From: Gayadomonas joobiniege G7
Lineage (GTDB): Bacteria; Pseudomonadota; Gammaproteobacteria; Enterobacterales; Alteromonadaceae
Assembly: GCF_000300815.1 (NCBI RefSeq)
Contig: NZ_AMRX01000006.1
Location: 868,001 to 932,000, forward strand
Direction: 5' to 3'
DNA: 64,000 nucleotides
The notes under the pieces are model-generated. The model saw nothing but the letters and a program-made list of their open reading frames with translations. It made no database searches and was not told the origin of the DNA. The position numbers and the translations under genes are program-made. Positions 17,250-55,717 of this stretch are shown here, in pieces (the stretch's first letter is position 1; the number at the start of each line of letters is the position of its first letter).

Positions 17250-17340
17250 AATTTTCCTCATTTAATTGGGGTTAAGCCTCCACATACCCCCGAAATCCGA
17301 CCATAAAATGGCACCCCGGACAAGGTTCTGGTATGTGTGT
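17250..17340 (-). promoter_or_regulatory. Putative S2 (rpsB) autoregulatory mRNA leader
   Basis: The 5' region of rpsB holds two complementary segments, CACATACC (17281-17288, plus strand) and GGTATGTG (17330-17337), that can form an 8-bp long-range stem. Between and next to them are GC-rich runs, including GGGG and CCCC that pair across the ribosome-binding region. Gammaproteobacterial rpsB mRNAs are known to carry a structured leader bound by S2. This assignment rests on position and the visible pairing, not on a covariance-model match. Confidence 0.5.
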
Positions 17341-17445
17341 GTGGTTTAAAGTTAAGTAATATCACAATTCATTTGCGAATTGCTGGCGCGCTTTATACCA
17401 TAGACAGCCTCAAACGACAATTAAAAATCACCGCGAGGCGAACTC

Positions 17446-50936: not shown

Positions 50937-52736
50937 TTATTTGCTTAACTTTAATACGGCTAAAAACGCGTCCTGCGGCACATCTACGTTACCAAGCTGC
51001 TTCATACGCTTTTTACCTTCTTTCTGCTTTTGCAATAGTTTTTTCTTACGCGAAACGTCACCACCATAACATTTGGCAATTACATTTTTACGTAGCTGTT
51101 TTACCGTCGTCCGAGCAATAACATGACTACCAATCACGGCTTGGATAGCTATGTCAAACATTTGCCTTGGAATAAGCTCTTTTAATTTTTCCGCCATTTC
51201 GCGACCACGATACTGGGCATTGTCTCTGTGTGTGATTAACGCCAATGCGTCAACACGGTCACCATTAATCAAAATGTCCACCCGCACCATGTCTGACTGC
51301 TGAAATTCTTTAAAGTTGTAATCAAGTGACGCATAACCACGTGTTGCTGATTTAATTTTATCAAAAAAGTCTAAAACCACTTCAGCCATAGGGATATCGT
51401 AAACAACGCTCACCTGGTTGCCATGATAAGTCATATTTTTTTGCACACCGCGCTTTTCAACACAGAGAGTAATAACGGCGCCCAAATGCTCCTGTGGAAC
51501 CAAAATGTTACACTCAGCAATCGGCTCATACATGGTTTCTATATTGTTAATTGGCGGCAATTCAGACGGGTTATCCACCAAAACCTCGGTGCCGTCGTTG
51601 AGTTCTACTTTGTAAACGACCGTTGGTGCCGAAGTGATCAAATCCAGATCGTATTCGCGCTCTAAACGTTCTTGAATGATCTCCATGTGTAGCATACCTA
51701 AAAAGCCACAACGAAAACCAAAACCTAACGCAGTTGAACTCTCTGGCTCGTAAAATAATGACGCATCATTCAAACTCAATTTACCAAGTGCATCTCGCAG
51801 ATCTTCAAAATCATCACTCGAAACGGGGAAAATACCGGCATACACCTGTGGTTTTACTTTTTTAAAACCGGGTAAACGTTGTTCAGCTGGGTTTCTACTC
51901 ATAGTAATGGTGTCACCAACAGGTGCACCTAAAATGTCTTTAATCCCAGCAATAACATAGCCTACTTCACCAGCTTTTAGCACGCCAGTTTTGGTCTGAT
52001 GCGGCGTAAAAATGCCGACTTGGTCAATCACATGATCTTGTTTTGTTGACATGACTCGCATGCGCTCGCCACTACGAATTTCACCGTTGACAACACGCAC
52101 CAGTGAAACAACGCCTTGGTAATTATCAAACCAAGAGTCAATGATTAGCGCTTGTAACGGTGCTTCCGGATCACCTTCTGGTGGTGGTATTTGTTTAACG
52201 ATCACTTCTAAAACATCTTCAACACCAATCCCTGTTTTAGCTGAACAGCGCACGGCATCAAGTGCATCTATTCCAACAATATCCTCGATTTCTTCAGCAA
52301 CCCTATCTGGTTCGGCGGCTGGTAAATCAATTTTATTTAAGATTGGAACCACTTCAAGATCCATTTCGATTGCGGTATAACAGTTTGCCAAGGTTTGTGC
52401 TTCGACACCTTGGCCTGCATCAACCACCAATAATGCACCTTCACAGGCAGCTAAAGAACGAGATACTTCGTAGCTAAAGTCGACGTGGCCTGGGGTGTCG
52501 ATAAAGTTAAGCTGATAAGTTTCACCGTCTTTAGCGGTGTAATTTAGGGTTACACTCTGAGCTTTAATAGTGATGCCACGCTCTCGCTCAAGCTCCATAG
52601 AGTCTAACACCTGTTCAGCCATTTCTCGGTTTGTTAAGCCGCCACAAGTCTGAATAAGTCGGTCGGATAAAGTTGATTTGCCGTGGTCGATGTGCGCAAT
52701 AATGGAAAAATTGCGTATCTTATTGAATTTTCTCAA
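50937..52736 (-). CDS. lepA: Elongation factor 4 (LepA)
   Basis: Ribosomal GTPase that helps translation and ribosome biogenesis under stress. The 599-residue protein has [16 protein letters not shown] (G1), [12 protein letters not shown] (G3), NKIDLP (G4), EF-G-like domains and the LepA-specific C-terminal domain rich in lysine ([18 protein letters not shown]). It is the first gene of the block. Its upstream neighbour is accessory DNA rather than the usual rseC or similar. Confidence 0.98.
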
Positions 52737-53003
52737 ATTTTAAACTCATTAAATCTGTAAAAACCGTACCAATCTACACACTGATCTACACAAAACGAAA
52801 ACAGCGATTTTACTCTAAATGATACGATTCAATGTTATAAACTAATTCGTGCATTATACTTATATACGCAATACTATAAAGAGACATTTACTATTCGTTT
52901 CATGAATGGGTATTAGATAATCATAAAAATCCAATATATACCTAATATCGCAAATCTTTACTAGCCTTAAAGTTCAGCATCAGCAAAAAGGGAAAGAAAG
53001 GAA
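52737..53003. other. lepA upstream region
   Basis: AT-rich intergenic DNA between lepA (minus) and a small plus-strand gene. A TATAAT-like -10 on the minus strand (plus 52853-52858) could serve lepA, though its -35 is weak. An AAAGGA ribosome-binding site for the plus-strand gene lies at the right end. Nothing else is recognised. Confidence 0.35.
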
Positions 53004-53225
53004 ATGATAGTTTGCAAATTTATGTCTGAATATAAAGATACATCTATAGCCAACTTTAATTCTCGGATTATAAAACTTGAATCTGCTCCATCTGTAGGAG
53101 ATGTGTTTTATTTAAAAGAAGAGGAAGGCTCAGTTAAGGAATGGGAAATAACAGATGTATTTCATCAATTTGATGTATCGAAAGGAACCCATGAAGTCGA
53201 AGTGATTTATAACGATATTACCTAA
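53004..53225 (+). CDS. Small hypothetical protein
   Basis: A 73-residue frame with a well-placed AAAGGA before its ATG and a hairpin 7 bases after its stop. The product is acidic (GDVFYLKEEEGSVKEWEI, FDVSKGTHEVEVIYND) and looks like a compact beta-rich soluble domain. I do not recognise the family. It is on the opposite strand from the adjacent integron cassettes and has no attC, so it is not part of the array. Confidence 0.6.
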   Translation: MIVCKFMSEYKDTSIANFNSRIIKLESAPSVGDVFYLKEEEGSVKEWEITDVFHQFDVSKGTHEVEVIYNDIT

Positions 53226-53250: not shown

Positions 53251-53296
53251 CGAAATATTTAGTGGGTACAGTAAGTAGTGAATAAGTCTTAACTTG

Positions 53297-53413
53297 AGCT
53301 GCCAAACTCGAATTTTACAGTTGAACCAAATCGGATACTGAATTGCCGCTTTGTGCCAGAAGCGGAAGTTTGGCTCTAGAATATGTAATGTCGGCTAAAG
53401 CCAGATAGCCGAC
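53297..53413. repeat. Structured non-coding stretch next to the cassette array
   Basis: Nested inverted repeats: GCCAAACT (near 53301) pairs with AGTTTGGC (near 53367), enclosing an inner CCGCTT/AAGCGG hairpin. A separate GTCGGCTA/TAGCCGAC hairpin (53390-53413) is followed by TTAATTTT. No gene is seen. It may be a dispersed intergenic repeat plus a terminator for whatever reads rightwards. I see no integron core site here. Confidence 0.45.
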
Positions 53414-53436
53414 TTAATTTTGATACGGAAATACAA

Positions 53437-53512
53437 GTTTAACGCCTTGCACAGCGGCGCGAGGTACGAGTGTCCGGCCCCGCATGGGCGATTGTGCCTG
53501 GCCTTGTTAACT
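53437..53512 (-). repeat. attC site of cassette 3 (DUF5713 cassette)
   Basis: Read on the minus strand it opens with R'' AGTTAAC and ends with R' GTTAAAC (matches GTTRRRY), 76 bases overall. Internal bulged pairing GCC..GCACA/TGTGC..GGC gives the attC hairpin. R'' is the exact reverse complement of the cassette's own 5' core GTTAACT at 53892-53898. It shares the 11-base string TCGTACCTCGC with the attC at 54400-54501. Confidence 0.85.
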
Positions 53513-53530
53513 GCCTGTACTTAAATTCCA

Positions 53531-53872
53531 CTACCATTCTCTTGGTGCTATAACATCTTCAATGTCGACGTTTTCGAAGCCATAGGACTTAACTATGAAA
53601 TCAAAATTGTCAGCCATAACCTCTCTGGCCCCTGTTTCTAGCTCACTATCATTCTCTTCAAACTCTTCTTCTAACTCATTAATGCTTTCAGTAGCAGCGT
53701 GAGTTAGCTGCAATAGACTCTCAGTGGTTTGAGGTTTCTGTGCTTCTATTTTTTCACACAGATCAACAAGTATTGCCTTAATTTTATCGACCATAAAGTC
53801 TGGAAAGTACCCATCTCGATACATTCCAGTTAGAAAATCATAGCTTCTAATTTTTTCGTTAGTTACTTGCAC
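53531..53872 (-). CDS. DUF5713-family protein in an integron cassette
   Basis: A 113-residue acidic helical protein starting at a GTG (53872) with GGAG five bases upstream. An overlapping ATG reads into a stop after three codons. MYRDGYFPDFMVDKIK, LLQLTHAATESINELEEEF and AREVMADNFDFIVKSYGFE match what I recall of the DUF5713 family, of unknown function and often seen in integron arrays. It is the only gene of cassette 3, between the core sites at 53892 and 53443. Confidence 0.85.
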   Translation of the reverse strand: MQVTNEKIRSYDFLTGMYRDGYFPDFMVDKIKAILVDLCEKIEAQKPQTTESLLQLTHAATESINELEEEFEENDSELETGAREVMADNFDFIVKSYGFENVDIEDVIAPREW

Positions 53873-53891
53873 ATTTTCTCCTTGTGAAGAC

Positions 53892-54002
53892 AGTTAACGC
53901 CGTTATAACCGGCCTGAACGTAGTTGCTTTGTTTGCGCGAGCGTAGCGTTTAAGCGCAAACAAAGCAACGCAGTGAAGGTCAGGTTGATAACTTTGTTAT
54001 AG
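53892..54002 (-). repeat. attC site of cassette 2 (Nudix cassette)
   Basis: On the minus strand it opens with R'' CTATAAC (inside the last codons of the Nudix gene) and ends with GTTAACT. A 16-bp perfect stem, GTTGCTTTGTTTGCGC with its complement, forms the hairpin core, and CCTGA/TCAGG pairs outside it. R'' is the exact reverse complement of the cassette's 5' core GTTATAG at 54400-54406. Confidence 0.9.
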
Positions 54003-54393
54003 CGCGTTTTATAAAACCAATCGCCCCTTGAAATAAAGGATGCCATTGATCATTTAATTTTTCATTAAGTGGTTGCCAGAAAAAAGAAAAATTATGTCCG
54101 CCATCATCTTCTGTATAAAACTCCCATTCATTTGGCAAATGTGAAGTTACGGACATAACGTAGAATTCCCAAACTTGATTTTGATACCCGGAATCCCACG
54201 CTCCCAAATAATTAGCAATCTCCCCATGAATTCCTGACTCTTCCATCAACTCCCTTATCCCAGCAATCTCAGCTCTCTCATTTTCTTCAATAGTACCTTT
54301 TACGATCTGATACCCTGCAATAGGATGCTTAAAGGCTAAAACCTCATACCCCTCATTTCCAGATCTTAGTACAACAGGACAAACTTTTTTCAT
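53980..54393 (-). CDS. Nudix hydrolase in an integron cassette
   Basis: A 137-residue protein with a complete Nudix box from residue 33: GTIEENERAEIAGIREL followed by MEESGI, matching Gx5Ex7REUxEExGU, so hydrolysis of a nucleoside diphosphate linked to another moiety is expected. The substrate is unknown. The ATG lies only six bases inside the cassette border with no clear ribosome-binding site. The stop lies within its own attC, so the attC R'' core encodes the last residues. Confidence 0.92.
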   Translation of the reverse strand: MKKVCPVVLRSGNEGYEVLAFKHPIAGYQIVKGTIEENERAEIAGIRELMEESGIHGEIANYLGAWDSGYQNQVWEFYVMSVTSHLPNEWEFYTEDDGGHNFSFFWQPLNEKLNDQWHPLFQGAIGFIKRAITKLST

Positions 54394-54399
54394 AGTGAA

Positions 54400-54501
54400 C
54401 TATAACGCCGCCATATGGGGCGCGAAAAAGCTTGGCTATAATTTGCGAGGTACGAGCACAAGCCAAGCTTTTTGTGTCCGCCCTTAAACGCTTTGTTAGG
54501 T
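54400..54501 (-). repeat. attC site of cassette 1 (lipoprotein cassette)
   Basis: On the minus strand R'' ACCTAAC is followed by the classical AAAGCGTTTAAG and ends with GTTATAG. A 12- to 13-bp perfect stem AAAAAGCTTGGC/GCCAAGCTTTTT forms the core. R'' is the exact reverse complement of the cassette's 5' core GTTAGGT at 54928-54934. The layout is typical of chromosomal-integron attC sites. Confidence 0.92.
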
Positions 54502-54512
54502 ATTTTTTGTAC

Positions 54513-54923
54513 TTACATATTAATGTAAGTACCTTGTAACTCAGCATCACTACCTTTGCAAATTGGTATTCTTTGACCTGAAGTGATTGTTTTAATACCC
54601 CTTGTGGTTGGAACAAAAGTATCAGGTTCAAATGCAACTTTTGACGTAAGTTGGTAAAAAGGCTCGTTAATATATGTTGTGATTTTTTTTAATAGTGCCC
54701 AGTTAATATTTGTGTCGGGCATCACTTTCCGCTTTTTGTTGTATTCGTGAATTTGTTCAAAAGAGCTTGGCCAACGCTTATTTTCACAATAGTAAAATGC
54801 TGAAATTTCCATAATAGCGTTATGAGCTAATGCGACGGGATCTGTTTTGTCATTTAGGTCATTAGTGGATGTGCAAGCAGACAACAACCATAGAGATAGT
54901 AAAATTACAAATGAACTCTTCAT
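54513..54923 (-). CDS. Small lipoprotein in an integron cassette
   Basis: A 136-residue protein with a lipoprotein signal (MKSSFVILLSLWLLSACTST, lipobox LSAC), the +2 residue (Thr) favouring outer-membrane sorting. The mature part carries FYYCENKRWPSSFEQIHEYN, a pattern reminiscent of pilin-like or type II secretion pseudopilin-related solubles, but I do not recognise a family. The start codon is five bases from the cassette border, where AGG of the core GTTAGGT can serve as ribosome-binding site. Confidence 0.8.
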   Translation of the reverse strand: MKSSFVILLSLWLLSACTSTNDLNDKTDPVALAHNAIMEISAFYYCENKRWPSSFEQIHEYNKKRKVMPDTNINWALLKKITTYINEPFYQLTSKVAFEPDTFVPTTRGIKTITSGQRIPICKGSDAELQGTYINM

Positions 54924-54927
54924 AAAT

Positions 54928-54996
54928 ACCTAACAGCTTAATCATTAGAAGAGCGTATAGAACTTTTTAACATAGAGTCTATAAATGCCATTCCAA
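54928..54996 (-). promoter_or_regulatory. Cassette-array entry: attI-side core site and candidate Pc promoter
   Basis: The first cassette border is GTTAGGT on the minus strand (plus 54928-54934), a perfect GTTRRRY. Upstream on the same strand TTGGAA (plus 54991-54996), a 16-base spacer and TATGTT (plus 54969-54974) form a plausible promoter reading into the cassettes, where integrons carry Pc. No clear attI L/R pair could be assigned. Confidence 0.45.
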
Positions 54997-55101
54997 TAAG
55001 CTTTAAATTAATCATTTCATAAACTTAAGCATTAACTCGTCAAAAAGCAACAAGAACTTTCAGGAAAGAAACCAAGCCAACTTGCTTAACGAGCCAAATT
55101 G

Positions 55102-55182
55102 GTAAAAACAACTGAGATTTACACACATGTTATTGGTTCTAAATTTGGCTATGCTCGCAGCCCCCTTGATCTGGCATACTGA
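55102..55182 (+). pseudogene. 3' remnant of an integron integrase gene (intI)
   Basis: In one frame 26 codons read VKTTEIYTHVIGSKFG then YARSPLDLAY and a stop, which is the C-terminal end of IntI-type tyrosine recombinases, including the catalytic tyrosine (IYTHV). A stop in the same frame lies at 55087-55089 and nothing upstream resembles the rest of the integrase, so the gene is deleted or rearranged. Orientation (opposite to the cassettes, 3' end away from them) is exactly that of an integron. Confidence 0.8.
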
Positions 55183-55348
55183 AGTCTTCAAAACTCTGAT
55201 AGAAAACCAAGTGTCTACTTTGAGTCTGAGAGCCGACGCTCAACCAAAAGCTAACTGAGATCTGCTTTTCGCTCATAGCTGTCTGTCAGATGACGTCTAA
55301 ACCTATTCATCGAAACTGTAAGATCAGTTATGAGCTACTACAATCATG
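55183..55348. other. Non-coding junction between the integron relic and the prophage
   Basis: No gene, tRNA or clear attachment-site repeat is seen between the intI remnant and the first prophage-side gene. The prophage boundary should lie here or close by. Confidence 0.35.
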
Positions 55349-55606
55349 CTACCTGTAGGAGTTACTCACCCCATCCAAATACCCTTGGGCAAATGCTGCA
55401 TGTGGGCTTTTATGGCGAACGACCCCAGCTTGGCTTTCCGGTAAACTATCTAGATCGATTCGTAAATTTTCATCCCTGGTTAATCCTGCTTCATACCCCC
55501 TATCATATGCACACGCCGCACATCGATGCCTTCCGTGCCCCCCTTGGTCATGAGGTAAGCGTTCAAATATTTCATTATAACGATGATCGTCATCACATAC
55601 TGCCAT
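55349..55606 (-). CDS. Small CxxC protein of unknown function
   Basis: An 85-residue protein with ACGGA before its ATG. The sequence GGHGRHRCAACAYDRGYEAG, then DLDSLPESQAG and VRHKSPHAAFAQGYLDG, looks highly conserved in style and is familiar from short hypothetical proteins of mobile regions. I cannot name a function. One CxxC pair plus several histidines suggests a metal site. It has its own promoter and lies beyond the terminator of the phage operon, so it may be a prophage-edge cargo gene. Confidence 0.7.
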   Translation of the reverse strand: MAVCDDDHRYNEIFERLPHDQGGHGRHRCAACAYDRGYEAGLTRDENLRIDLDSLPESQAGVVRHKSPHAAFAQGYLDGVSNSYR

Positions 55607-55694: not shown

Positions 55695-55717
55695 CAAAAA
55701 AGCGGCCTAAGCCGCTT
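55695..55717 (-). terminator. Terminator of the leftward phage operon
   Basis: AAGCGGC-TTAG-GCCGCTT followed by TTTT on the minus strand. The stem begins in the last codons of the AlpA-like gene and includes its stop. It would end the leftward early transcript. Confidence 0.75.

Follow-up and report, generated by a model that had tools for sequence, protein, structure and literature searches.

A decayed integron with three gene cassettes between transposon-like ends in a predicted prophage of a Catenovulum genome

What carries three short genes upstream of lepA, each followed by an attC-like hairpin, on a chromosome where no full integron integrase accompanies them? The window, by which we mean the whole stretch of 64,000 nucleotides that was analysed, is C7:868001-932000 of a draft genome (3.91 Mb, 8 contigs) of the genus Catenovulum in the Alteromonadaceae, and the genus-level sample holds 8 Catenovulum genomes, the present one and 7 genus mates (G001-G007). 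An earlier note on this DNA had described three minus-strand genes and three attC-like sites, and both were found at the coordinates that it gave. To these can be added parts that were absent from that note, namely an attI site, a remnant of the integrase gene intI, transposon-like ends, prophage borders and further arrays. In the reading that we consider likely, the cassettes lie in a dead integron, which is carried by a transposon, probably mobilised by IS481, within a prophage.

IntI inserts circular cassettes at G^TT, and the three genes, which are confirmed as integron gene cassettes, lie in units bounded by such points:

54406..54933, minus strand: cassette 1, between G^TT crossover points
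54513..54923, minus strand: cassette 1 protein, 136 aa, no family above cut-off, start lipoprotein-like by eye
54400..54501, minus strand: attC1, covariance model 87.3 bits, E 3e-18, also seen in folding
53898..54405, minus strand: cassette 2, between G^TT crossover points
53980..54393, minus strand: Nudix hydrolase of cassette 2, 137 aa, PF00293, 34 bits
53892..54002, minus strand: attC2, covariance model 38.4 bits, E 8.9e-7, also seen in folding
53443..53897, minus strand: cassette 3, between G^TT crossover points
53531..53872, minus strand: DUF5713 protein of cassette 3, 113 aa, PF18977, 150 bits
53437..53512, minus strand: attC3 (weak), 13.6 bits with filters off, palindrome scan 8.0

The earlier note had asked for an attC model to be run at the three positions, and with a covariance model of our own, which is not that of IntegronFinder, attC1 and attC2 were upheld and attC3 was left weak. 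This model was built from 30 attC-like sites, of which 9 lie elsewhere in this genome, 21 in genus mates and none in the window; they were chosen by our palindrome scan and are the same kind of palindrome as the sites tested. In the 64 kb, attC1 and attC2 are its only matches at E<=10; attC3 is matched only with the filters off, at E 0.025 over 2,701 bases. A first attC scan with strict cores found 0 of the window's 3 sites. The simpler palindrome scan gives 13.2 for attC1, 24.2 for attC2 and 8.0 for attC3, and six further places in the window reach at least 8.0, one of which (14.6, at 28952-28879) has no covariance-model match. Five mononucleotide shuffles yielded 14 matches of at least 8, none as high as 11. 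Since shuffles and other places reach 8.0, attC3 by itself is not above chance in the palindrome scan. When the bottom strand of each attC (the window's plus strand) was folded as DNA, the z scores were -2.59 for attC1, -5.36 for attC2 and -0.46 for attC3, the last being no better than shuffles. The core of attC3 is the complement of its own cassette's start, and the site abuts the conserved array end described below.

The self-matching 7-base cores that had been pointed out earlier are exact in 3 of 3 window cassettes, the attI junction being counted for cassette 1. Over seven arrays (window included), exact cores were seen in 21 of 29 consecutive pairs, as against 20 of 192 mismatched pairings, and part of the 8 non-matching pairs may be due to attC sites missing from our lists. 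As for the cassette proteins, a plasmid search with that of cassette 1 and a phage search with the Nudix protein were without match, and relatives of the DUF5713 protein are present on 10 plasmid records; PADLOC matches of these proteins are weak and are left out of the argument. Rfam at the gathering threshold gave no match in the whole window besides the following:

17271..17359, minus strand: t44 RNA (RF00127), Rfam, 70.5 bits

The cassettes run downwards from 54934, where attI adjoins cassette 1, and a divergent remnant of intI lies beyond:

54934..55099, minus strand: attI and intI leader, 92-97% identity to three other genome copies, crossover GATTAAGCTG^TTAGGT
55102..55182, plus strand: intI remnant, 3'-terminal 26 codons with their stop, frame intact (VKTTEIYTHV...), from alignment to intI copies

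By alignment and a search with the window DNA, 54934-55099 is 97, 95 and 92% identical to the attI/leader of three broken intI loci. This shared attI/leader and the in-frame 3' end of intI place cassette 1 at attI, with intI once divergent beyond it, and the layout, as far as it can be read from the DNA, is that of a normal integron with a dead integrase. That no full integrase accompanies the array, as had been noted before, is borne out at the level of the genome: the integron integrase profile TIGR02249 has 16 matches in the whole draft genome, of which 0 are above the curated cut-off and three fall on the broken intI copies. In the genus sample, a match above cut-off is present in 6 of 8 genomes (the present one included in the eight), one with an internal stop. 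IntegronFinder (PMC9024848) has chromosomal integrons and CALINs among its classes. An integron is recognised by a functional intI, of which 26 codons remain in the window, and a CALIN by at least two attC sites with no integrase nearby, which is formally the case here. Given that attI and an intI remnant are present, "decayed integron" is a better name than CALIN. Of the two readings left standing by the earlier note, it is thus the decayed integron that fits, and an anonymous CALIN is ruled out by the attI that adjoins the array. A sigma-70 scan of the minus strand from 54880 to 55360 had no match for a Pc promoter, an outcome that is no evidence of absence.

The search for an integrase and further attC sites in the genome, which had also been proposed, thus gave no integrase above cut-off; it did give further attC-model matches. 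At least 22 lie at E<=1 (one being the opposite strand of another), a count that rests on the scoring of 150 out of 1538 first-look candidates, in the genome from which nine of the training sites came. DNA of attI type has 8 matches at 7 loci in the present genome, with 6 each in G001, G004 and G006, 3 each in G002 and G005, 2 in G007 and 0 in G003. At 5 of the genome's 7 attI loci, attC-model matches lie within about 3 kb on the cassette side. The DNA adjoining the attI edge differs at the 25 copies that reach it (two matches short of the edge were set aside), and the 1.5-kb cassette sides have at most 102 bp in common. Two units, C7:1033953-1035310 and C1:21289-24822, are 99.3% identical over 1,056 bp beginning exactly at the array end, and the latter has three extra attC-like matches (82.1, 35.6 and 21.9 bits) between attI and the shared terminal cassette; comparison of the two points to a recent gain or loss of cassettes at attI. 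At C4:497029-497134, a 103-bp attI fragment with cassettes follows closely downstream of a gene end that was read by eye as the 3' end of groEL. Movement of attI and its flank as a cassette was looked at and is unsupported. Nor is the idea of old, fixed orphan attI sites borne out, flanks being common to two genomes at one locus only (G001 C2:455k and G005 C2:126k).

The integron of the window is enclosed by a pair of ends:

53279..55342, no strand: transposon-like element enclosing the integron, 2,064 bp, TGAATAAG...CTACTACA, imperfect inverted repeats, without a 7-bp duplication
53279..53364, plus strand: left end, imperfect inverted repeat of the right end at 35/86 positions
55257..55342, minus strand: right end, outer 27 nt agreeing with IS481-type ends at 23/27 (by eye)
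53352..53437, plus strand: conserved array end, 97% identity at two other genome units, within a 94-bp match at 53352-53445

Two other units of the genome have the 94-bp stretch beyond attC3 at their distal ends too, at 97% identity. On the intI side, a second stretch has 17 matches across the genus among those listed, of which 8 stop at or just past ...CGCTCA. In the window, both sides reach further out, to TGAATAAG at 53279 and to CTACTACA at 55342, and among the seven attI loci of the genome both outer ends are present at the window only. The termini are TG...CA, the inverted repeats of about 86 bp are imperfect, and the element has no transposase of its own. The ungapped match of 35/86 was reached by 5 of 5000 shuffles. 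Gapped local alignments gave weaker or mixed results: the score of the window ends was reached by 48 of 2000 shuffles, and in a second test on nine end pairings none of 500 shuffles reached the score of one pairing, while each of the remaining eight was reached by between 18 and 269 of 500. At the window copy a 7-bp target duplication is absent, 1 of 7 bases matching.

The same outer ends enclose other integrons and other cargo, which includes TIR-domain, NA37, AIPR and Abi-alpha proteins. One such element, in the genus mate G006 (G006:C71, 3,011 bp), has a 7-bp duplication and carries a TIR-domain protein together with a reverse-transcriptase match below the Pfam cut-off, a cargo that is predicted to be of defence type. 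Another is in the present genome (C7:835662-838348, 2,687 bp, duplication CCTAATC), with genes for an NA37 protein and for a protein of 400 aa that matches no family. A third (G006:C83, 3,068 bp) has a target duplication and carries an integron with an intI fragment and two attC sites, both of which belonged to the training set of the covariance model. Plasmid elements with these ends carry AIPR, Abi-alpha, GIY-YIG or alcohol dehydrogenase genes, or attC sites. Perfect 7-bp direct repeats (CTTTAAA, AATAATC, CCTAATC, CAGGATT and ATTTAAC) stand outside 5 of 9 cargo elements, those in which both ends are present having been counted (this leaves out C. adriaticum, G001, and pAMDE1, where one end is cut short); of the remaining four, one has 6/7 and three have none (1, 4 and 1 of 7), the window among them. 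In a cross-element control, matching 7-mers were found in 0 of 110 comparisons. The ungapped end match is 38-46/86 in four of the sisters (reached in none of 5000 shuffles for each), 29/86 in G006:C83, where the right end is truncated (399 of 5000 shuffles), and 33/86 in the genome's own element at C7:835.6k, for which there is no shuffle figure. Units with inner ends only (C1:21-25k and G002:C18) have no duplication by eye.

These ends are also present in other genera. A search of 30 relatives for the right-end pattern found it in 5, and the reversed control pattern had no match. Searches of plasmids with two right-end queries gave 23 and 25 records, mostly of Alteromonas and Pseudoalteromonas (matches in Klebsiella are of about 30 bases only), and the left end gave 10 records; a search of phage records with one end query had no match. 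Integron parts were met again in these plasmid elements: that of P. donghaensis has one attC match and an integron integrase (TIGR02249, 411 bits) with 76% identity to that of G005 over 291 aa, and that of A. macleodii QZ9-9 has two attC matches, one just within the left end. In the P. piscicida plasmid, a 21.5-bit attC match lies outside the element. In the A. mediterranea 615 element there is an IS30-type transposase, which may have inserted separately. In four Alteromonas plasmids, the terminal CTACTACA, whole or in part, was seen by eye to be repeated in tandem outside the right end, together with about 7 adjoining bases, as if these were footprints of several insertions.

One right-end variant met in the search of relatives, TGTAGTAGCTCAGACTTGATCTGACAG, recurs on plasmids: 873 records matched, and in 5 of the 15 that were listed it stands at ends of an element annotated as IS481. 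The transposase of one such element reaches 288.7 bits, where NCBIfam sets its IS481 cut-off at 224. With 7-bp duplications at its sister elements, the window element is considered transposon-like. An IS481-family transposase acting in trans probably moved such elements, as judged only by the similarity of the ends and the equal length of the duplications; against it stands that the present genome has no such transposase and that, at E<=1e-20, one of the 8 genus genomes has it. Copies of insertion sequences without duplications have been described, one IS481 among them with a reported sequence of 4 bp, not 7 (PMC11708052), and missing duplications are to that extent compatible with IS481 mobilisation. 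Could the window instead belong to a plain family of decaying integrons, whose platforms multiplied through segmental duplication or through homologous recombination and whose ends are ancestral flanks? Such a history would agree with a genome that has no IS481 transposase, with copies of inner-end units that have no duplications and with the restriction of both outer ends to one of the seven attI loci, but it does not account for the same ends around non-integron cargo and in plasmid elements of other genera, nor for perfect 7-bp duplications, all of them different, at five of nine elements, and we regard it as unlikely.

The transposon-like element in turn lies within the borders of a predicted prophage, at the 5' end of lepA:

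52690..52910, no strand: left copy of a 222-bp direct repeat, taken as attL, 87%, containing the first 47 nt of lepA and leader
53004..53225, plus strand: 73-aa ORF, no family match, between attL and the element
55349..55606, minus strand: gene of phage type, phrog_3941, 90.6 bits, with 6 bp between its stop codon and the element

The second copy of the repeat, C7:978767-978988, lies outside the window and is adjoined by a 425-aa integrase (Arm-DNA-bind_3, 54 bits; Phage_integrase, 34 bits; both above cut-off), and RecT, Dam, a CI-like repressor, terminase and portal are encoded between the copies. These features define a predicted prophage of 58 kb that sits in the 5' end of lepA and encloses the element. 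The position between att sites by which a prophage-borne integron is recognised is found here for borders that are themselves predicted, the 222-bp repeat standing beside the phage-type integrase. The prophage appears to integrate in the coding start of lepA, at about codon 16, and to supply replacement first 47 nt and leader, and both copies of the repeat were seen by eye to have the same peptide start. An integron that merely stands beside the prophage, the element having already been near lepA or having arrived separately and the 222-bp repeat not being true attL and attR, is an improbable arrangement to our mind: the element falls between the two copies of the direct repeat, one of them next to the integrase, and comes to within 6 bp of the stop codon of the phage-type gene, as against an IMG/VR entry for the prophage that ends at window position 55707 and leaves the integron outside, a 73-aa ORF between repeat and element that has no phage match, and phage searches that found no related phage with a comparable left end or carrying the integron.

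The genus mates also bear on the nature of the locus itself. Upstream of lepA, within 11 kb, rpoE-rseABC is found in 6 of the 7 (the contig of G003 ends too soon), and in the present genome rpoE is 65 kb away, at C7:985.6k; with the attC model, nothing better than E 0.24 was found upstream of lepA in the mates. The ordinary conserved operon that the earlier note had held against its own reading is therefore not what the relatives have. Chance hairpins in such an operon, to which the weak score of attC3 and its shuffle-like folding might lend themselves, are refuted by two strong model matches, exact cores, attI, the intI remnant and the lack of the operon in 6 of 7 mates, and hardly need to be considered.

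We thus return to the reading in which the cassettes of a dead integron are carried by a transposon within a prophage. From the cassettes, attI, the intI remnant, the ends common to varied cargo, the sister duplications and the prophage repeats, all of which are directly supported, the following course can be proposed. IntI would have inserted each circular cassette at the G^TT of attI, after which the integrase gene would have decayed to its last 26 codons, presumably with the loss of recombination activity at present. The integron would have become the cargo of an element of 2.06 kb that encodes no transposase itself, an IS481-family transposase would have mobilised such elements in trans, and the element would have entered a phage by transposition, so as to lie now near the attP end of the 58-kb lepA-integrating prophage; both the part played by an IS481 transposase and the entry by transposition are what we infer. 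This chain is weakest in that the window copy has no duplication, that units with inner ends only have none either, that the other attI loci lack the outer ends and that the genome has no IS481 transposase.

Mobilisation of native chromosomal integrons is a central question in integron evolution, and the present finding suggests how entire integrons could come to be copied to new places in these genomes. A transposon-ended integron with a duplication (G006:C83), sisters of defence type and a copy in a prophage make up a concrete and testable exit route for platforms. The transposon route could help explain seven attI loci in a genome without an integrase above cut-off, the outer ends both being kept at the window only. 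It is an evenly balanced question whether marine Alteromonadales hold, more generally, cargo-swapping IS481-ended transposons, most of them without their own transposase, which carry defence-type genes or whole integrons and have spread platforms over the Catenovulum chromosome and into phage. If so, mobility would be nested at four levels (cassette, integron, transposon and phage), and the scattered attI sites would be usable in trans by an IntI encoded elsewhere.

In the literature that was searched (mostly non-subscription journals), nothing was found on Catenovulum integrons, on non-autonomous IS481 cargo elements or on IS481-ended elements that count a native marine integron among their cargos. 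The nearest known systems each share a part of the present arrangement. Chromosomal integrons and CALINs (PMC9024848) have in common with it the attI, the attC cassettes in one direction and the divergent position of intI, whereas here intI is reduced to 26 codons, the bounds are transposon-like and there are seven attI loci per genome. Integrons are also known in phages, as in the Shewanella prophage M16-3 with its two attI-bearing arrays (PMC9892861), which is alike in having integron parts within a prophage; compared by its description only, it differs from the present case, in which intI is nearly gone and the borders are transposon-like. The IS481-family insertion sequences on plasmids of Pseudoalteromonas and Alteromonas have a similar outer right end (23/27, query variant) and 7-bp duplications in 2 of 2 that were read, but they are about 1.2 kb and have a transposase, which the window element does not. 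In Acinetobacter there are class 1 integrons flanked by MITEs, and an integron mobilization unit is also known (PMC10969869 and PMC13367494); in these, too, an integron is moved between non-autonomous transposon-like ends. Those integrons are of class 1, with Tn3-type ends in the integron mobilization unit, whereas an environmental integron with IS481-like ends is found here, together with 7-bp duplications at the sister elements, swapped cargo and single terminal repeats instead of two full MITEs.
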